DNA from: Candidatus Heimdallarchaeota archaeon
GTDB lineage: Archaea > Asgardarchaeota > Heimdallarchaeia > Heimdallarchaeales > Kariarchaeaceae
NCBI GenBank assembly: GCA_021399405.1
Contig: JAAFKL010000161.1
Coordinates: forward strand, 1 to 7,978
Length of the DNA: 7,978 nucleotides
Direction: 5' to 3'
The position numbers and the translations under genes are program-made. The first letter of the stretch is position 1; each line of letters starts with the position of its first letter. Below are positions 1 through 7,978 of the stretch, piece by piece. The notes under the pieces were generated by a model, which was given only the letters and a program-made list of their open reading frames with translations, was not told where the DNA came from and ran no database searches.

Positions 1-79
1 GCCCAGTCTGGCCAACGGCGCTAGGTTGAGGGCCTAGTCTCTTAGGAGTTCGTGAGTTCAAATCTCACCCTCCGCACCA
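1..79 (+). tRNA. tRNA-Leu (anticodon GAG), 5' end cut by window edge
   Basis: This is the 3' nine-tenths of a class II leucine tRNA, which decodes CUC and CUU. The D arm (GCC/GGC) begins at the first base. The anticodon stem is 21-25 paired with 33-37, around a 7-nt loop at 26-32 with anticodon GAG at 28-30. A long variable arm lies at 38-51 (CTC-TTAG-GAG). The T stem is 52-56 paired with 64-68, with loop TTCAAAT. The 3' acceptor strand is 69-75, followed by discriminator A76 and a genomically encoded CCA at 77-79. The missing piece should be about 9 nt, with a 7-nt acceptor strand complementary to CCTCCGC. The long variable arm, GAG anticodon and A73 discriminator agree on leucine. Confidence 0.93.
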
Positions 80-85
80 TTTTTT
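80..85 (+). terminator. T-run directly after the tRNA
   Basis: Six T residues follow the CCA end immediately, with more T-rich sequence up to about position 103. Archaeal RNA polymerase terminates on such U-tracts without needing a hairpin, so this is a plausible tRNA terminator. No hairpin is seen. Confidence 0.4.
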
Positions 86-253: not shown

Positions 254-568
254 GTGGATATTCTCAGAAAGATAATTCAAAAGACAAGTAGTGAGGATAT
301 TTTTATAAGTAATCATGCTAAAGTAAGAATGATAGAGAGAGGAATATCAACTTTGTCAATTAAATCTTTGATCAAAAATGGAGAAATAATTGAACAGTAT
401 TCAGATGATTATCCATGTCCATCTGTTCTTCTATTTAGCACTTTAAATGATGTTCCGGTTCATTTGGTTATTGGTAATTGTGACGATCACATTAGGATTG
501 TAACTATTTACGAGCCCGATGAAGATGTATGGATCAATCATAGAAAAAGAAGAGGTGATAGTAATTAA
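254..568 (+). CDS. DUF4258 family protein, probable toxin of a type II toxin-antitoxin pair
   Basis: A 104-residue protein that fits the DUF4258 pattern along its whole length: S19-N-H-A22 with R25-M-I-E-R-G30 near the N-terminus, GEIIEQY at 43-49, a central PVHLVIG strand (68-74), and the C-terminal signature RIVTIYEPDEDVW (81-93) followed by basic residues. Members of this small soluble family often sit next to YgiT-type zinc-finger proteins and are regarded as RelE/MqsR-like toxins; RNA cleavage here is inferred, not shown. The start is GTG at 254: an in-frame stop lies at 245-247, and the ATG at 247 is in another frame and closes quickly. The next in-frame ATG (residue 26) would remove the conserved HA-RM-ERG motif. 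The 3' end overlaps the zinc-finger gene, implying translational coupling. Confidence 0.85.
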   Translation: MDILRKIIQKTSSEDIFISNHAKVRMIERGISTLSIKSLIKNGEIIEQYSDDYPCPSVLLFSTLNDVPVHLVIGNCDDHIRIVTIYEPDEDVWINHRKRRGDSN

Positions 569-812
569 ACCAAATATTTGTAGCTTTTGTCGGAGCGAAA
601 TAAAAGAAGGAAAAACAGAATTTATTGTTCACTTAGAAGGCCAGGTTGTCGTATTAACTGATGTGCCTGCTTGGATCTGTATAAATTGTAAAGAAGCCTA
701 TTTTGATTTTAAAATTTCTACTAAAATTGATGAAGTAATAGAAAACATTCGTGATGGTGATTTTCGGGCAAAACCTATTGCCGCGGGTGAAATTAGCCTT
801 GCAGATTTATAA
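519..812 (+). CDS. YgiT/MqsA-type zinc-finger protein, probable antitoxin
   Basis: The frame encodes two CxxC pairs (C21-x-x-C24 and C54-x-x-C57, counted from ATG 519), with the typical VPAWICINCKEAYF stretch before and around the second pair. This is the signature of the YgiT-type zinc finger found in MqsA-like antitoxins, and the pair probably binds one structural zinc. Unlike full-length MqsA it has no C-terminal helix-turn-helix; only a tail of about 35 residues follows, with one predicted helix (67-78) and a short acidic end (GEISLADL). It may therefore neutralise the upstream DUF4258 protein without binding DNA itself. The start is uncertain. The coordinates use the longest ATG frame, which overlaps the toxin gene by 50 bp; ATG 525, GTG 555 or ATT 564 are alternatives. 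Homologues usually begin only a few residues before the first CxxC, favouring a start near 555-564. Confidence 0.8.
   Translation: MKMYGSIIEKEEVIVIKPNICSFCRSEIKEGKTEFIVHLEGQVVVLTDVPAWICINCKEAYFDFKISTKIDEVIENIRDGDFRAKPIAAGEISLADL
552..559 (+). promoter_or_regulatory. strong Shine-Dalgarno site inside the toxin gene
   Basis: GAGGTGAT is an eight-base match to the complement of the usual archaeal and bacterial 16S rRNA 3' end. It lies within the last codons of the DUF4258 gene (Arg-Arg-Gly-Asp) and is the only good ribosome-binding site seen before any start in the window. It is well spaced for initiation at ATT 564, which overlaps the toxin stop codon TAA at 566-568. It is not suitably placed for ATG 519 or 525, and it overlaps GTG 555. 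It therefore bears on where the zinc-finger protein really starts. Confidence 0.5.
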
Positions 813-916: not shown

Positions 917-1684
917 ATGAACGAATTAACCCATGGCACCAGTCAAATTAATAGTATTCAATTTGCATATACTGAGGTGGGAGAGGGCGATACCGTCATT
1001 CTCATTCCTGGGACTCTGGGTGATGAATATTTATTTGAAAAAGTCCAATTAGCTCTTGCATCTGATTTTCATATCATAGTTCTTAGCCACCTCAATATAA
1101 CCTCTTTTGACGAATTAATTGATGTGTATCATTCAATATTTACGGTAAAATTTGAGCTGACTAATTTCCACTTGGGTGGATCATCCGTCGGTGGGTGGAT
1201 TGCACAACATTATACAATGAAGTACCCTGATCATGTCAAATCACTTATTATAGGAAATTCATTTGCTGATAATACCATTTTAAGAGATCAATCCCTTGGT
1301 TTGTATAAAATCACCAGATTTATCCCCTGGTTTATCATCAAAAGATTATTCGAAAGAAACACCAGAAAATCACTTGCAAATTATAATCCAGAGATAGCTG
1401 AATATTTTGTTCAATCACTTAGATCAATTAAAAAAACATTTCTCAGAAGAAAATTATACTGGTCACTCGCACCCCTGCCGAAACTTGTGATAAATAATGA
1501 AATTCCAAAGTTAATTATCTACACCAAGGACGATTCAGTAGTTAGTTTTGATAATACCGAAGTTTTATTTGAAGTGTATCCAGAAGCTGATGTGGGTGAG
1601 ATAGAGATTGGGGATCACTATCCCTATAGAACAAATCCTGATGAATATATTGCTAAACTAAGGGCTTTTCTCCTTAGAAAATAG
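917..1684 (+). CDS. alpha/beta hydrolase, maspardin (SPG21)-like
   Basis: A 255-residue cytosolic alpha/beta-hydrolase fold protein without signal peptide or membrane helix. The oxyanion-side loop is ILIPGTLGD (28-36). The nucleophile elbow is G88-S-S90-V-G92 with S90 as nucleophile. The likely acid is D205 or D206 (YTKDDSVVS), and the base is H234 in GDHYPYRTNPDEY. The triad looks complete. The segment after the elbow (LIIGNSFADNTIL, 110-122), the cap region (RFIPWFIIKRLF, 134-145) and the YPEA...YPYR end resemble eukaryotic maspardin more than generic esterases; that comparison is from memory. The substrate is unknown. Start ATG 917 is chosen because the nearby ATG at 910 is out of frame and short. 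No Shine-Dalgarno site is present; weak TATA-like stretches lie at 859-866 and 881-888. The gene ends 10 bp from the oppositely oriented hydrolase gene, so their 3' ends converge. Confidence 0.85.
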   Translation: MNELTHGTSQINSIQFAYTEVGEGDTVILIPGTLGDEYLFEKVQLALASDFHIIVLSHLNITSFDELIDVYHSIFTVKFELTNFHLGGSSVGGWIAQHYTMKYPDHVKSLIIGNSFADNTILRDQSLGLYKITRFIPWFIIKRLFERNTRKSLANYNPEIAEYFVQSLRSIKKTFLRRKLYWSLAPLPKLVINNEIPKLIIYTKDDSVVSFDNTEVLFEVYPEADVGEIEIGDHYPYRTNPDEYIAKLRAFLLRK

Positions 1685-1694
1685 TATTATTATA

Positions 1695-2576
1695 TTATAT
1701 TTTCTCGATCTCGGCTTGATTTGGGAGTAATTCGAATTTCTCCAAAAACCCATTGAGTTTATTAGAATAATTAGGATGCCTTGCCATTTTGGAATGAGCA
1801 GAATTAGGTACAACCCATGCTTGATGCTTAGGATTTGCCTTTAAAGCTTTGCAATTTAGGTCGTAATGCCTCTCGAGACTAAACATAGCATCATTTTCGC
1901 CATGAATAAGAAAAACTGGGGATTTGCTCTTTGCTAAAGTATTAACAGGAGAAAATTCTACCCACGGATAATCCCATTTCATTATGAACCAGGGGATCCA
2001 CCCGAACAAAGCAGATGGTAACCTAAGTGAATTCAAAAAATCATAAAACATTGTCTCGAGGGTGGAAGGTAATGCTTCTAGGACAACTGCTTTTGTTTCA
2101 TATTTGTAGGCATAAAATGAAGCAGCTATGGACCCAAAAGAGACTCCGTGGACAATTGGAACCCCTATATCCTCTGTCTCTACAATTTTACGTGCATCAA
2201 CATAGAAATCATATGCTTTTGAAGTCTTTGCCCAAGCGCTCTGTCCATGACTTCGGGCATCAAGAAAAATCAAAGAAAAACCATTATCCCAATAAGTAGT
2301 AGCTCTAGAAGTCATTCTACTGCTATTTCTTCCCCAAGGGTGAAAAAGAATTACCCAATTATTATTTTCTTTATTTTGATTTTTATGGCAGACCCAATAT
2401 CTTACAAATGGATTATTCAAATATTTTTTTTCCTGCAAACCCGATTCAAGCCCAAATGGAATTTCATAATTGATATTGCGATATTTGAGAGGATTATTTG
2501 TCATCATAAATAATACCACCAAATTTGCAATTAAATATAATCCCAGAATTATATAGATCAATTGGAGAAAGAGCAT
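1695..2576 (-). CDS. membrane-anchored alpha/beta hydrolase (serine hydrolase, substrate unknown)
   Basis: A 293-residue protein with an N-terminal hydrophobic helix (about 3-25) followed by an alpha/beta-hydrolase domain. Visible motifs are VILFHPWGRNSSRM (75-88, the oxyanion-hole region), FLDARSHGQS (104-113), the nucleophile elbow G144-V-S146-F-G148, the acid D229 in IHGENDAMF, and the base H261 in NSAHSKMARHP. This resembles the single-pass ABHD13/ABHD17/Bem46-type hydrolases, which include lipases and depalmitoylases; no specific activity can be assigned. Basic residues just after the helix (K31, R33) suggest the catalytic domain may face the cytoplasm, but an uncleaved signal anchor facing outward is not excluded. 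The ATG start at 2576 has no Shine-Dalgarno site and a TATA-like box about 30 nt upstream. The gene begins 49 bp after the propeller gene on the same strand. Confidence 0.85.
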   Translation of the reverse strand: MLFLQLIYIILGLYLIANLVVLFMMTNNPLKYRNINYEIPFGLESGLQEKKYLNNPFVRYWVCHKNQNKENNNWVILFHPWGRNSSRMTSRATTYWDNGFSLIFLDARSHGQSAWAKTSKAYDFYVDARKIVETEDIGVPIVHGVSFGSIAASFYAYKYETKAVVLEALPSTLETMFYDFLNSLRLPSALFGWIPWFIMKWDYPWVEFSPVNTLAKSKSPVFLIHGENDAMFSLERHYDLNCKALKANPKHQAWVVPNSAHSKMARHPNYSNKLNGFLEKFELLPNQAEIEKI

Positions 2577-2625: not shown

Positions 2626-4254
2626 TTACTTCAAAGTTGAAAAACGATTTGAGAAATACCTTCGGAATGCAATTATCGCTATAACAACCAAAAAACCGAT
2701 TCTTGAAATTACGTCTATGTTTGAATCCGAGGTTGATGAGGTACTTGATATGGGATAGGTTTGGAGAGTAGAAGAGGATGAAATTTGGTCTGAACTAGTC
2801 ATTGTAGAGGTACTAGAAACAGTAGTTATTGGGTTTTCAACAGAAGGAATATAGAATTTAGCATAAAAAGCATCTGTGACTCCTCCGAAAGTTGAATCTA
2901 CACCCTTTGTTGGCAAATTCTCTGAAGAAGTATACCCAAACAAATGTACAAATTCACCCGATATTAATATTGAGGACCCCAAATCATTATTAGATCCTCC
3001 AAAATATGTGCTGAAAGCTAATTCTCCTCCAGAATTTAATTGCAACAATAGACCATCCCAACCTCCTCCATATGTAGAATTGATGGCATTAACCATTGGA
3101 AAATTATTAGATTTCGTAGCAGCCATGATTATTATATTATTTTGATTATTAATTGCGATTCCACATGCGTGATCAGTTGCATTACTACCTATAATTTTAA
3201 TCCAATCTGGAACACCCAGCGAACTTAGTTTTACTACAATTATATCTTCTAATCCATTATAGATCAATTTTTCATCATTATATGTTGATAAATCGGTAGA
3301 GCTGGTGAAACCTGTTACATAGACATTTCCCCACTCATCGGTAACAATCGCCCTTCCAAATTCATTTTCAGACCCTCCGAGTAATTGTATCCAATTAATG
3401 AGCCCTATAAAATCAATGGAAGCAATCATAATATCATTGAGTTTATCCTGTTGATCGAAAACATATGTATCTTGAAATATTGAAGATGTAGAATACCCAG
3501 CGAGTAAAATATTACCAGTGTTGTCAATTGAGACAGCCATTGCATTATCCATCCCGTTTCCACAAATCATTCGAGTCCAAATTAAATTTCCAATTGGACT
3601 CCACTTTGTAACAAAAATGTTCGAAGAACTTGATAGATCACACTCAGAAAATCCGGCAATAAGGTCTGTAGAGAAAGTAGTACCTATAATTATTAAATTA
3701 TCATCCTCATCAATTGCAACCTTAGAATTTGTTTCCAGGAGATCTCCTCCATAATAGGTTGACCACAATTGACTACCATTTGGATGATATTTAGTAATGA
3801 ATATATCTCCATTTCCGTCATAAATTTCATCAAATCCATTTTTAACAGACAAATCTTCGGATGTGGTCGAACCAGTAACAATTATGTTATCTTCAGAGTC
3901 CGTTACAATGCCATTAATTGCATCAAACTCGCTTCCTCCAATATATTTGCTCCAAACAAGGGTGTTGTTTACATCAAATTTTGATATGAAACCTTCAATA
4001 CCACCATGATGATTGTTATCAGTTACTAAAAAATCAGACGAAGCTGTATAACCAGTGATTATATTATTATTCTGGCTATCAATTGTCCCACCTTTTGCTT
4101 CATCAGTCATATTACCACCGAAGAATAAACTACTCTCAACATATGCTGATTCATTGATTGTATTACTTTGAATCGATAGATCTCCGATAGATCCTAATAC
4201 AGTTTGAACCGAAATTAATATCATGATAAACAATAAGGTTCGTAATATTTTCAA
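2626..4254 (-). CDS. secreted SBBP-repeat beta-propeller surface protein
   Basis: A 542-residue surface protein. It begins with a signal peptide (basic MKILR, hydrophobic 6-20, possible cleavage near 21-22). Seven SBBP-type repeats follow, beginning near residues 41, 101, 164, 226, 288, 351 and 414. Each reads roughly W-s-x-x-x-GGs...D, then a D/N-rich turn with a GN or DN pair, then hhhTGxTxS. This should fold as a seven-bladed propeller. A Ser/Thr-rich stalk (about 477-511), one membrane helix (about 514-530) and a basic tail (RR, R, K) anchor it, so the propeller faces outside. Such propellers commonly serve binding or adhesion; the ligand is unknown. The start is TTG at 4254: no in-frame ATG exists upstream, and the next ATG (residue 11) would destroy the signal peptide. 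C206 and C231 could form a disulfide. Confidence 0.88.
   Translation of the reverse strand: MKILRTLLFIMILISVQTVLGSIGDLSIQSNTINESAYVESSLFFGGNMTDEAKGGTIDSQNNNIITGYTASSDFLVTDNNHHGGIEGFISKFDVNNTLVWSKYIGGSEFDAINGIVTDSEDNIIVTGSTTSEDLSVKNGFDEIYDGNGDIFITKYHPNGSQLWSTYYGGDLLETNSKVAIDEDDNLIIIGTTFSTDLIAGFSECDLSSSSNIFVTKWSPIGNLIWTRMICGNGMDNAMAVSIDNTGNILLAGYSTSSIFQDTYVFDQQDKLNDIMIASIDFIGLINWIQLLGGSENEFGRAIVTDEWGNVYVTGFTSSTDLSTYNDEKLIYNGLEDIIVVKLSSLGVPDWIKIIGSNATDHACGIAINNQNNIIIMAATKSNNFPMVNAINSTYGGGWDGLLLQLNSGGELAFSTYFGGSNNDLGSSILISGEFVHLFGYTSSENLPTKGVDSTFGGVTDAFYAKFYIPSVENPITTVSSTSTMTSSDQISSSSTLQTYPISSTSSTSDSNIDVISRIGFLVVIAIIAFRRYFSNRFSTLK
2914..4134 (-). repeat. seven SBBP propeller repeats (protein level)
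   Basis: Seven units with a spacing of 60-63 residues. The conserved GG(S/N) turn and the (I/V)TG(Y/S/F)T strand end recur in blades 1, 2 and 5. Blades 3, 4, 6 and 7 are more diverged: blade 4 has CGNG, blade 6 has GSNA and MAAT. The nucleotide sequences have drifted, so this is an old protein-level repeat. Confidence 0.8.
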
Positions 4255-4392: not shown

Positions 4393-7300
4393 TTATCTTC
4401 GTGATCTTCGTGCAACAATTGGTAATGCAACTAATGCAAGAGCAACTACAAATAATGATATGGGTAAGAACCCATCGTCAGAGTCGTCCTTCTTGGTAGA
4501 AGAAGTTGTCGTTGGAGTTGTTGTAGTTGTGGTTGAAGTAGTTGGTGTACTAGTTGTTGTTGTTGTTGTTGTTGTTGTGGTAGTAACTGGTTCAGGAATG
4601 GTTACAGTGAATGAGAATTCAACGTAATTTCCTTCATTGTCAGTTACTTTTATTGTAACAACAGTGTCACCAACTGCAAATGCGGAAACATTCAAAGCAT
4701 ATGCTCCAGAAGTTAACGTGATTGCACTGTATGCACCAGTTCCAGTTTTCATTTCATAAGTTGAAATTCCAACATCATCTGTAGCTGTGATAGATACTGT
4801 AACAACATTAGCTACAATATCAGATACTGTGTAACTTACATCAGGTCCGAAGGTTACTAACTCTGTGTTGATTCGTGGCATGTATATATCAACAGCACTT
4901 GTTTCCAAGAATGCAAATGCAACACCAGAAGTACCATAGTACATTGTTGATTCAATGTATGCTTCATTAGTAGATTTGTTCCAATTTGCTTCATCACCAG
5001 CAGAAGTGCTTGTGATATTTGCAATATCTTCCAAATAAGCTGTTGCTTGTGTAATTAAACCATATGCAGCAGTATGTTTGATCTTTTGGAAAGCTTCAGT
5101 TGCAAACATAATAATGCCTGCAGAACCATGACCCAATGAAGTTGCGATTCGCAGATTTGAAGTCGAATCTGCCCATGCCCATCCAGTAGTTACTGCGGTT
5201 ACGTTACCTTCATACCATTTGAAAACACCATCAACTGTTGTTAAATAGTTATTTTCACCAGTTAATAAGTAAGCCCTGAGGTAAGTAGCACCAATACCGG
5301 CTCCACCTCTTGACCATCCACTTAGATATTCAGTTCCGCTCGCTTCATTAACCCAAGAGTATTCTCCTAATACTATGGTTGCTTTAGCATCCAAATACTT
5401 GAGAGCATCGATCGCAGCGTTCATGTAGATATAATTGTTTCCTGCAAGGGCTAAATCCATGAAGAAACTTGCAATACCAGCAGATCCGTGCCAACGACCC
5501 AAGTAAGTACCTGAGGTATCAACATTTGCTAATCTGTACCATTTGAGACCATCTGAGTCTGCGACACCAGTTGAAATTAAGAAATCTCCAACACCAGAGG
5601 CAACATCCAAATATGTTGTATCTCCAGTTTGTACATACAAGTTGAGGAAGAATGTACCAACACCTGGTGTACCTTTACTCCATCTTGTAGATAAGAGTAA
5701 TGGATCACCAACATCAGCATATAATTCAGGCCATGCATAACCTTCTGTAGTATCTGCAGTAGCGATAAAGAATGTACCTGCTGCTTTTGCAAGGTCAAGG
5801 AATGATTGATCACCTGAAGCTTGACTTAGCTTAAGAAGTGTTTCACCAATACCTGCTGCACCACCGTAGAAATCCATGTCAATAGCATTAGATGTGTTTA
5901 CATTTACTGCATCATATCTTTCATACCATGCTTTTCCACCATCTAGTGTCACTGCAACGGCATCGAGCCAATTACCACCTTTTACAGCAGCTTCTAAGTA
6001 CCCAAATGTAGTATTTGTAGTCAATCCACCAAAGTGCAATGCTGTTGTTTGTCTACTGTACATATTGAGTAGTTCAAGAATATTTCCAGAAGCACCCTTA
6101 AGTGTACCAGTTTTATATGTAGCTGATTCAGTTTCAAGCCATTTTAGACCTGTACCATCAACTTCAGCAATGTCCAATAAGTAAGTAGTTGCTGCGACGG
6201 CCATAGCTTTATCAGCTGGATCTTGCATTAATTCGAGTGCTTGCATGAATGTAGCTACACCGACTATTCCATAATAGAGGTAATAATCAATATAATTCTC
6301 AGCAGCTGCATCAGATTTTAACCATGCAACACCATTTGTGTTTGTGAACATCAAATCATTAAGACCTAATGCAATAGATTGCGCCATATTTTTGAATTTA
6401 ACATCACCAGTTGCTTCGTATGCTTGAACAAGGAACATTCCAATACCTGGACCACCATGACCCATTCCGGTCATGTTTCTTGGATTAGATTCTGAATCTG
6501 AGAAAATAATTCCATTTGCAGTTGTGTTTGAGATCTCAGTGTAATAGTTGTAAATTAGATCAATAGTTGCTAGATATCCAGCACCACTATCAAGAGTATT
6601 AGCCCTTAACAGCACTGAACCAATACCAGCACCACCTCGTGACCATCCACTGAAGAATGTACCTTCTGCAACTTGGTTTTCAAATTTTACACCTGTTCCA
6701 TCAGCAATCGCTTGTGCTTGTACATAGTCTACAGCAGATAAAGCAAGCGCCTTATGAGCTGCAGCACCTGTAACTTCATAGAGATCTATCAAGAATGAAG
6801 CGATACCCGCAACACCATGCCATCTACCTAAAAATATTTCACTTGCTACATCAGGGAGTTGTAACCAGTATGCATCTCCAGCAAGGTCTAGTTTCTCAGA
6901 ATCTAACCAAGTGAACAAACCTTTAGCAACGTTCAGATATTGAACATCTTCAGTAAACCTATACATTTCTAGGAATACTGATCCAATACCAGGACCACCT
7001 TTACTCCATCTTGTGGATAAAAGTGTTGATCCATATGATTCAGGCCATGCATAACCGGTAGTTGTATCAGCTACAGCAATCAACCAATCTGCACCACCTT
7101 TAGCGGCATCAAGATACAATGGATCATGCGTAATTCTGTATAATCTAAGTAGGTATGATACAATACCGGCTACACCTCCATAATATGGTGTAGAAACTAA
7201 GGTTCCAGATGGTGTACCATCTTGGTTATAAACCTCATACCAATATGTACCACTGGCATTTGTTTGTGCTCTTCCGAGTAACCAGTTACCAGCTCCAATA

Positions 7301-7978
7301 GCCAGTTCAAGTGGTAGGGCAGTTTCTTCTGTGTTCAATCCGGTGAATAAAGAGGATCTTGATCTCTCTTCATATACATCTAACATGTAATCACCGATCG
7401 AAGCCATACCTTTGATCATACCAGATTTGTAAACACTTCCGGTTTTATTGGTTTCAGGCCATTGTAACCCACCAGCAGCAGGTTCTGCAACAGCAGCTAA
7501 TGTATCGATAACATCCTGGGTATAATCACTATTTATCATAGTCCCATCATTAACGAAAACAACTACTTGTCCTTCTACCCAATCCCAATAATTAGTGGTT
7601 CCACTTACAGCATAAGCATGTATAATGTATGTGCCAGTTGTAGCAGGGGCAGTAAACGTTTCAACATATGCAGCAGTTGAATCATCACCGGTCATAGCAT
7701 GAGCGGGTTCTGAAACTGTTGCAACGAGAAAGTCACTATTATCTCCATCGATGGTATTATAACCGATTGTTAGATCATTGGATGATATTGCTCCACCAAA
7801 GTTTGAGACAGTGGCAGAAATATCAAAGACCTCGCCAGGAGTCACATACATAATTGCAGGAGTAAATAATATTTCTCCAGTAACTCCAGTATTTGGAGAA
7901 CCAAAATTATGACATCCTCCACTTGTTGAGGATGGTCTCCAAGTATCGAAGCTACCATTGTCCTTGTCACTACTTACC
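4393..7978 (-). CDS. cell-surface protein with two tandem LanC-like toroids, 5' end outside the window
   Basis: At least 1194 codons; the frame stays open to the window edge. Residues are counted from the internal ATG at 7851. Order: an upstream piece with a GGCHNFGSP motif; a beta-sandwich (about -20 to 100); toroid 1 (108-560); toroid 2 (561-985); an Ig-like beta-sandwich (about 990-1086); a Thr/Ser/Pro stalk (1090-1119); an acidic spacer KKDDSDD; a membrane helix (about 1128-1147); and an RRSRR tail. Each toroid has seven Gly-rich repeats, such as WSKGGPGIG, GRWHGVAGI, WSRGGAGIG and GHGGPGIG, as in LanC lanthionine cyclases. The zinc ligands of LanC are changed: repeat 5 has WS instead of WC (S404, S847) and repeat 6 has GHG instead of CHG (H465, H908). 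The repeat-4 histidines H345 and H788 are kept. A lanthionine cyclase activity is therefore unlikely; binding or hydrolysis of surface glycans or peptides is possible. Base composition is visibly richer in G+C than its neighbours. Confidence 0.88.
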   Translation of the reverse strand, partial: VSSDKDNGSFDTWRPSSTSGGCHNFGSPNTGVTGEILFTPAIMYVTPGEVFDISATVSNFGGAISSNDLTIGYNTIDGDNSDFLVATVSEPAHAMTGDDSTAAYVETFTAPATTGTYIIHAYAVSGTTNYWDWVEGQVVVFVNDGTMINSDYTQDVIDTLAAVAEPAAGGLQWPETNKTGSVYKSGMIKGMASIGDYMLDVYEERSRSSLFTGLNTEETALPLELAIGAGNWLLGRAQTNASGTYWYEVYNQDGTPSGTLVSTPYYGGVAGIVSYLLRLYRITHDPLYLDAAKGGADWLIAVADTTTGYAWPESYGSTLLSTRWSKGGPGIGSVFLEMYRFTEDVQYLNVAKGLFTWLDSEKLDLAGDAYWLQLPDVASEIFLGRWHGVAGIASFLIDLYEVTGAAAHKALALSAVDYVQAQAIADGTGVKFENQVAEGTFFSGWSRGGAGIGSVLLRANTLDSGAGYLATIDLIYNYYTEISNTTANGIIFSDSESNPRNMTGMGHGGPGIGMFLVQAYEATGDVKFKNMAQSIALGLNDLMFTNTNGVAWLKSDAAAENYIDYYLYYGIVGVATFMQALELMQDPADKAMAVAATTYLLDIAEVDGTGLKWLETESATYKTGTLKGASGNILELLNMYSRQTTALHFGGLTTNTTFGYLEAAVKGGNWLDAVAVTLDGGKAWYERYDAVNVNTSNAIDMDFYGGAAGIGETLLKLSQASGDQSFLDLAKAAGTFFIATADTTEGYAWPELYADVGDPLLLSTRWSKGTPGVGTFFLNLYVQTGDTTYLDVASGVGDFLISTGVADSDGLKWYRLANVDTSGTYLGRWHGSAGIASFFMDLALAGNNYIYMNAAIDALKYLDAKATIVLGEYSWVNEASGTEYLSGWSRGGAGIGATYLRAYLLTGENNYLTTVDGVFKWYEGNVTAVTTGWAWADSTSNLRIATSLGHGSAGIIMFATEAFQKIKHTAAYGLITQATAYLEDIANITSTSAGDEANWNKSTNEAYIESTMYYGTSGVAFAFLETSAVDIYMPRINTELVTFGPDVSYTVSDIVANVVTVSITATDDVGISTYEMKTGTGAYSAITLTSGAYALNVSAFAVGDTVVTIKVTDNEGNYVEFSFTVTIPEPVTTTTTTTTTTTSTPTTSTTTTTTPTTTSSTKKDDSDDGFLPISLFVVALALVALPIVARRSRR
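4495..4584 (-). repeat. low-complexity Thr-rich stalk with a GTT trinucleotide run
   Basis: These bases encode about 30 residues that are nearly all Thr with some Ser and Pro, between the Ig-like domain and the membrane helix. The run includes eight perfect GTT units at 4553-4576 (+ strand). It is probably an extended, O-glycosylated spacer holding the toroids away from the membrane. Length changes in units of three would stay in frame. Confidence 0.8.
4897..6171 (-). repeat. LanC-like toroid 2 (second copy of the internal duplication)
   Basis: Seven repeats matching toroid 1 in order: KTGTLKGASGN (580-590), YGGAAGIG (662-669), WSKGTPGVG (724-732), GRWHGSAGI (785-793), WSRGGAGIG (846-854), GHGSAGI (907-913) and YGTSGVAF (972-979). 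Two DNA stretches are still identical to toroid 1: 5724-5742 equals 7038-7056, and 5671-5688 equals 6997-7014. The two halves come from a tandem duplication. Confidence 0.8.
6172..7530 (-). repeat. LanC-like toroid 1 (first copy of an internal duplication)
   Basis: Seven repeats with cores at residues 142-152 (KSGMIKGMASI), 224-230 (YGGVAGI), 282-290 (WSKGGPGIG), 342-350 (GRWHGVAGI), 403-411 (WSRGGAGIG), 464-471 (GHGGPGIG) and 527-532 (YGIVGV). Each is followed by an amphipathic helix and a second helix ending near a Trp or Leu pair, as in alpha/alpha toroids. It aligns with toroid 2 at an offset of 438-445 residues. Confidence 0.8.

Follow-up and report, generated by a model that had tools for sequence, protein, structure and literature searches.

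Those LanC proteins that have been characterised are mostly known as enzymes that form thioether rings inside the cell. In the comparisons reported here, the nearest solved structures of the LanC-like superfamily (PF05147) are the cyclase domain of the synthetase CuvL (8cav, 8car) and human LanCL2 and LanCL1. The residue following the first zinc cysteine is reported as Tyr285 in NisC, Lys876 in CylM and His277 in LanCL1 (PMC9934072), and class III lyase-kinase-cyclase synthetases (LanKC; ThurKC, 8sao/8sam/8sap, and PneKC and SalKC) have cyclase domains that lack the zinc ligands and are reported to cyclise nonetheless (PMC10604976, PMC7268733). In ThurKC the ligands are replaced by Ser726, Phe770 and Asp771, and the account of that enzyme describes loss of cyclisation when alanine is substituted for either Phe770 or Asp771 (PMC10604976).

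We analysed a 7,978-nucleotide stretch of DNA (the window; contig JAAFKL010000161.1) from a Candidatus Heimdallarchaeota archaeon. An open reading frame (ORF) on its minus strand (4393..7977), open at its 5' end where the window ends, encodes a 1194-amino acid protein with two LanC-like toroids in one chain. Compared with these nearest structures of the superfamily, both zinc cysteines are gone, new residues are invariant, two toroids are present per chain, and the protein appears to be exported and anchored. From the N-terminus it comprises a beta domain, LanC toroid 1, LanC toroid 2, an immunoglobulin-like (Ig-like) domain, a Thr-rich stalk, a transmembrane-like segment and a basic tail, and all of the corresponding coordinates below are on the minus strand. 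Within reach of the present searches it is the combination of two toroids, export with anchoring, and an invariant replacement set that seems to be new; we found no paper joining lanthionine synthetases with Asgard archaea or LanC with an archaeal surface protein, which does not imply absence from print.

The Pfam LANC_like model (PF05147) matches the whole protein at 138.9 bits (E = 2e-40; cut-off 23.2). Each half exceeds this cut-off when scored singly, with 82.2 bits (E = 3.6e-23) for residues 150–590 (6208..7530) and 72.4 bits (E = 3.4e-20) for residues 591–1036 (4870..6207), so each is a LanC-like domain in its own right. Three NCBIfam lanthionine synthetase models score far under their cut-offs (212.1 against 650, 137 against 304, and 116.1 against 575, the last being LanKC), as expected because the rest of a synthetase is absent. 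In a full AlphaFold model, with a predicted local distance difference test score (pLDDT) of 81.0, each half has 14 main helices, setting aside one extra four-residue helix per half, and toroid 1 modelled singly also has 14 (pLDDT 92.9; predicted template modelling score 0.92). Both halves are predicted to be seven-hairpin (alpha/alpha)7 toroids, and at the level of these models the fold and its anatomy are firm. When solved structures are ranked by Z-score against the toroid 1 model, LanC proteins lead (CuvL 36.1, LanCL2 33.9), accounting for all of the first 19 matches and for 20 of the first 22. The two halves are 36% identical over 436 positions.

A barrel of the kind found in sugar enzymes, (alpha/alpha)6 or (alpha/alpha)7 and unrelated to LanC, was the alternative fold to be weighed, with GH127, GH47, GH76 and cellobiose 2-epimerase as the candidates. 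All of these, and sugar 2-epimerases generally, are alpha/alpha toroids too, and together they provide the second-best profile and fold matches. GH127 exceeds its cut-off of 24.9 with the whole protein (44.3 bits) and half 1 (30.6) and falls below it with half 2 (22.8), a GH76 structure ranks first in a Foldseek search with the full model, and in a search with toroid 1 the epimerases are interleaved with LanC proteins, although the template modelling score (TMt) is 0.72 for LanCL2 and 0.64 for the best epimerase shown. LANC_like scores are nevertheless far higher, and several of the sugar enzymes have six hairpins, including the N-acylglucosamine/cellobiose 2-epimerase barrel, compared with the seven predicted for each half here. 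GH47 has an (alpha/alpha)7 fold with calcium and catalytic acids, and GH127 has catalytic and metal-binding cysteines, which are unmatched in the cysteine-free toroids. Absence of a family from the structure match lists does not exclude it, but with LanC structures leading on Z-score and seven hairpins per half we reject a hairpin-barrel sugar enzyme as the fold and consider this reading very improbable. PADLOC and PHROGs gave no match for the protein, and a viral structure library gave a single match to its model at E ≤ 0.001 (TMq 0.42).

An initial annotation of this DNA, made from the sequence alone, had proposed a LanC toroid fold, seven Gly-rich repeats twice in one polypeptide, and replacement of the WC and CHG motifs by WS and GHG in both halves; all three proposals agree with what we find. 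A better match to a glycosidase or epimerase barrel, which it had named as grounds for rejection, is not seen by Z-score or by Pfam score. Its residue numbers, counted from an internal methionine, are the present ones minus 42. In half 1 the first glycine of each repeat is at residue 190, 268, 327, 388, 448, 508 and 570, and half 2 has the same series. Both halves have GRWHG in repeat 4, GWSRG in repeat 5 and GHG in repeat 6. Profile alignment (hhalign) to seven LanC domains with the cysteines intact (P0008, P0020, P0021, P0024 and P0026–P0028) places these over GFAHG, YWCHG and CHG respectively of the P0008 row, and a profile search of solved sequences likewise places GWSRG over HWCHG of human LanCL2.

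At the first zinc cysteine position there is serine (S446, within W445-S446-R447 at 6637..6645 in toroid 1; S889, within W888-S889-R890 at 5308..5316 in toroid 2) and at the second there is glycine (G506, with H507 at 6457..6462; G949, with H950 at 5128..5133). Neither toroid has a cysteine, the single one in the protein lying in the N-terminal domain. The histidine of repeat 6, at the third zinc-ligand position, is kept in both halves, as is that of repeat 4 (R385-W386-H387 at 6817..6825; R828-W829-H830 at 5488..5496), which aligns with the catalytic histidine of LanC (His212 of NisC). These four residues, H387, H507, H830 and H950, are the H345, H465, H788 and H908 of the initial annotation. 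Repeat 3 has an arginine-tryptophan pair in each toroid (R323-W324 at 7006..7011; R765-W766 at 5680..5685). The catalytic aspartate (Asp141 of NisC), which belongs to repeat 3, corresponds to R323 by ungapped count from the repeat-3 glycine, although hhalign places a gap there.

Relatives came from three protein searches, each of which scored only the 7990–7999 candidates sharing most words. They include proteins labelled Heimdallarchaeota (P0005, from LC_2; P0012; P0013), Thorarchaeota (P0011, P0014), Promethearchaeota (P0007) and Kariarchaeaceae (P0023), and the closest fragments, P0012 and P0013 (76% and 79% identity), are both labelled Candidatus Heimdallarchaeota. We compared 12 full toroids, namely both halves of P0001–P0004, the first of P0005, and one each of P0014, P0015 and P0011; the truncated second toroid of P0005, the fragment P0018, P0007 and P0023 were left out of the counts. 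All 12 of these Heimdall/Thor-type toroids keep STRW in repeat 3 (including R323-W324), GRWHG in repeat 4, G(W/F)SR in repeat 5, GHG in repeat 6 and YYG in repeat 7, and four partial toroids (the first of P0011, P0012, P0013 and P0022) agree in repeats 3–7 where covered. In the Heimdall type the N-halves form one clade and the C-halves another and, given also the 36% identity between halves, both copies have kept the motif set since an old duplication. Thor-type toroids cluster together and may have undergone a duplication or conversion of their own. By eye, the one toroid of the Thor-type P0015 (631 amino acids) looks like toroid 1 of P0014 in its first part and like the C-terminal toroid of P0011 in its last; recombination between copies may alter the number of toroids, or this may be an assembly artefact.

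Conservation does not extend to all relatives. The initial annotation had named lack of the two histidines in homologues as grounds for rejecting its proposal, and both are missing from three more distant single-toroid proteins (P0006, P0016 and P0017; 0/3 aligned), which have none of the other motifs either although they resemble the window protein in their GCH N-terminal domain, leader and C-terminal segment. In P0007 (1847 amino acids) there are 14 GxxG motifs, enough for two toroids, and the motifs listed include none of the conserved set; this protein appears to be a second kind of double toroid. Its C-terminus has three hydrophobic segments, and in P0023 we see HG in two neighbouring repeats by eye. 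The set is thus dispensable for the fold and looks like a clade-specific function. Pattern scans of genome contigs (6 + 254 matches) and viral contigs (129) confirmed no relative, although the patterns were few and degenerate and absence is not shown.

These comparisons bear on the suggestion that the substitutions reflect selection and not decay. The loss of zinc ligands and the three distant toroids without the whole set would fit relaxed, decaying LanC domains, but the replacement residues are invariant in 12 of 12 toroids even though the window halves are just 36% identical, and the reading frame is uninterrupted across all 1194 codons; decay is the least probable of the readings we considered. 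Selection on the replacement motifs, as opposed to random loss, is supported by the alignments for the Heimdall/Thor-type clade, and because both histidines are missing from the distant relatives the claim is limited to that one clade.

Of the 441 positions of half 1, 53 are identical in all 12 toroids, with 34 of 220 outside helices and 19 of 221 within them. All but one of the 11 invariant K/R/H/D/E/N residues are outside helices (E175, K184, E313, R323, R385, H387, N434, R447, D494 and H507), R458 being the sole one inside. The invariant set around the former zinc positions comprises E175, K184, E313, R323, W324, W371, R385, W386, H387, N434, S446, R447, D494, H507, Y568 and Y569, and in the predicted model its members lie between each outer and inner helix. 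Tryptophan is enriched at invariant positions (6 of the 11 tryptophans are invariant; Fisher p = 0.0007). There are 17 tryptophan columns in the three distant toroids, but as those toroids are close relatives of one another this is uninformative. Since the zinc and catalytic residues of LanC occupy the same repeat positions, the invariant residues probably line one pocket per toroid.

The loss of both cysteines had been taken to mean a zinc-free site, which goes further than the residues allow because the two histidines and invariant Asp/Glu could still bind metal. Such a rebuilt site, cysteine-free and not metal-free, would have H387, H507 and an invariant acid holding the metal, with the histidines at LanC active-site positions and E175, E313 and D494 as candidate ligands; we regard this arrangement as unlikely.

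Nor is loss of the ligands unique to this protein, given the class III enzymes that are reported to cyclise without them (PMC10604976, PMC7268733). The toroids could by analogy belong to a zinc-independent, extracellular thioether-forming (thia-Michael) cyclase or thiol-adding enzyme resembling LanKC. They have serine at the first cysteine position as ThurKC does, the catalytic-histidine position is kept, and the residue after the first cysteine varies naturally among Tyr, Lys and His in LanC proteins. On the other hand, the window toroids have glycine and histidine where ThurKC has the Phe770 and Asp771 that are reported as necessary for cyclisation. In LanKC proteins the cyclase is preceded by lyase and kinase domains, and the window protein has no kinase match in Pfam as well as the low LanKC score noted above. 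Among six ORFs scanned against Pfam there is no kinase, lyase or dehydratase match, nor a dehydratase among four scanned against NCBIfam; precursor peptides were not searched for. A dehydrated substrate and a thiol are, in our judgement, hard to picture outside the cell, and this kind of activity seems a long shot. The two toroids probably have a role outside the cell other than thioether-ring formation, because other residues, strictly kept, stand in place of the zinc site.

The external location is well supported but indirect. After a Thr/Ser-rich stretch (residues about 1131–1165; 4483..4587), where pLDDT is below 50 for residues 1131–1194, the window protein has a C-terminal hydrophobic segment (residues 1166–1193; hydropathy maximum 2.73) with a model helix at residues 1174–1192 (4402..4458) and basic residues at the end. 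Its true start is very likely outside the window, since P0002–P0005, which align at the N-terminus, open with a hydrophobic leader that it lacks. A hydropathy scan of 12 homologues, which did not include P0015 or P0018, found an N-terminal hydrophobic segment in nine (not P0007, P0011 or P0020; P0011 starts inside a toroid) and a C-terminal one in nine (not P0005 or P0014, both of which end early, or P0020). Most of the relatives that appear to be exported (P0002–P0005, P0006, P0011, P0014, P0016, P0017, P0007 and P0023) combine one or more toroids with a leader, a GCH domain and a C-terminal hydrophobic segment. The location proposed in the initial annotation is consistent with these leaders and segments but may not be unique: P0020, a LANC_like protein that keeps WCHG and a CC motif, has by eye a lipobox-like N-terminus (no segment above threshold in the scan), which suggests that export by itself does not set the window protein apart.

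The remaining domains flank the toroids. The interval first assigned to the feature (4897..7530) leaves out both flanking beta domains and the transmembrane-like segment. The N-terminal domain (residues 1–146; 7540..7977) has strands in the model and a GCH motif, and is weakly choice-of-anchor V-like; the match to NF041895 (E = 0.00099; 19.2 bits) is under the cut-off of 42 and is a resemblance only, and five of the 14 members of homologue set A3 match the model at E ≤ 1. A CH motif is present in all relatives that cover this domain, mostly as GCH and in P0014 and P0015 as CGCH, and is possibly metal or heme related. The Ig-like domain (residues 1046–1127; 4597..4842) rests on model strands together with HYR and PKD matches that are both under cut-off.

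Our favoured interpretation, to which we assign a probability of roughly 0.4, is that this is a membrane-anchored external protein of a Heimdallarchaeota-like Asgard archaeon whose duplicated LanC-fold toroids either bind a saccharide or other anionic polymer outside the cell or process it. The two predicted (alpha/alpha)7 toroids arose by duplication, both zinc cysteines are lost and a new set is invariant around the former zinc positions. Each toroid probably has one pocket, which would work outside the cell and make no lanthionine. The ligand, glycan or anion, is a guess prompted by the tryptophan conservation and the second-best matches to sugar enzymes. A Trp-rich pocket with arginine, histidine and carboxylates might bind such a polymer, the two histidines could be acid/base residues, and the paired toroids could provide two adjacent sites that the Thr stalk keeps off the membrane. 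A sharper form, in which the Heimdall/Thor-type double toroids are cysteine-free surface enzymes of new specificity, each toroid using a His/Arg/carboxylate active site to process an extracellular glycan or other anionic polymer, we regard as doubtful.

Several observations weigh against the favoured interpretation. The matches to sugar enzymes may reflect merely the common alpha/alpha toroid, and three distant toroids of similar layout lack the invariant set (0/3), so the fold serves without it too. The 12 toroids are not independent, P0014 and P0015 being near-identical over long stretches. Although basic residues were expected to be clearly in excess at invariant positions, K/R/H residues are not significantly enriched there (7 of 28; p = 0.06), and we do not lean on an argument from charge. 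The putative pocket is drawn from repeat positions, and the gene context is limited to the short window.

A non-catalytic surface receptor or adhesin, in which the conserved pocket of each toroid holds a peptide or glycan that is not turned over, is only a possible explanation but nearly as likely as the one we favour. It is consistent with the anchored, stalked and repeated architecture, and with the distant single toroids, which share the GCH N-terminal domain and toroid and lack the invariant residues. The neighbouring gene on the same strand (2626-4254), 138 bases downstream of the LanC gene, encodes a 542-amino acid protein that matches SBBP beta-propeller repeats (PF06739, 8.1e-13). Its hydrophobic leader, Ser/Thr-rich stretch and hydrophobic C-terminal segment make it a second stalked surface protein, which also fits a receptor. 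What argues against it is that two histidines, several arginines and three carboxylates are strictly invariant in both halves, in our judgement beyond the usual need of a loose binding surface.

Further features lie elsewhere in the window. A DUF4258 protein (254-568, plus strand; 2.4e-24) adjoins a YgiT-type zinc-finger protein (519-812, plus strand; 35.8 bits against a cut-off of 20.2) that also matches phrog_29304, of unknown function (E = 1e-4), and the two look like a toxin-antitoxin-type pair from their profile matches. Two alpha/beta hydrolase genes are convergent (917-1684, plus strand; 1695-2576, minus strand), the second with an N-terminal hydrophobic segment. Positions 1-80 (plus strand) look by eye like the 3' part of a tRNA-Leu gene that ends in CCA and is truncated where the window begins; neither ARAGORN nor Rfam made a call there, and Rfam reported nothing over the window at gathering thresholds.

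If the interpretation that we favour is true, the LanC fold has moved to the cell surface, been doubled and had its active site swapped, and the toroid would be a general pocket and not only a cyclase. The invariant residues open the way to simple tests by binding and mutation, and the double toroid would give a testable handle on the surface biology of Asgard archaea, which are considered the closest prokaryotic relatives of eukaryotes.

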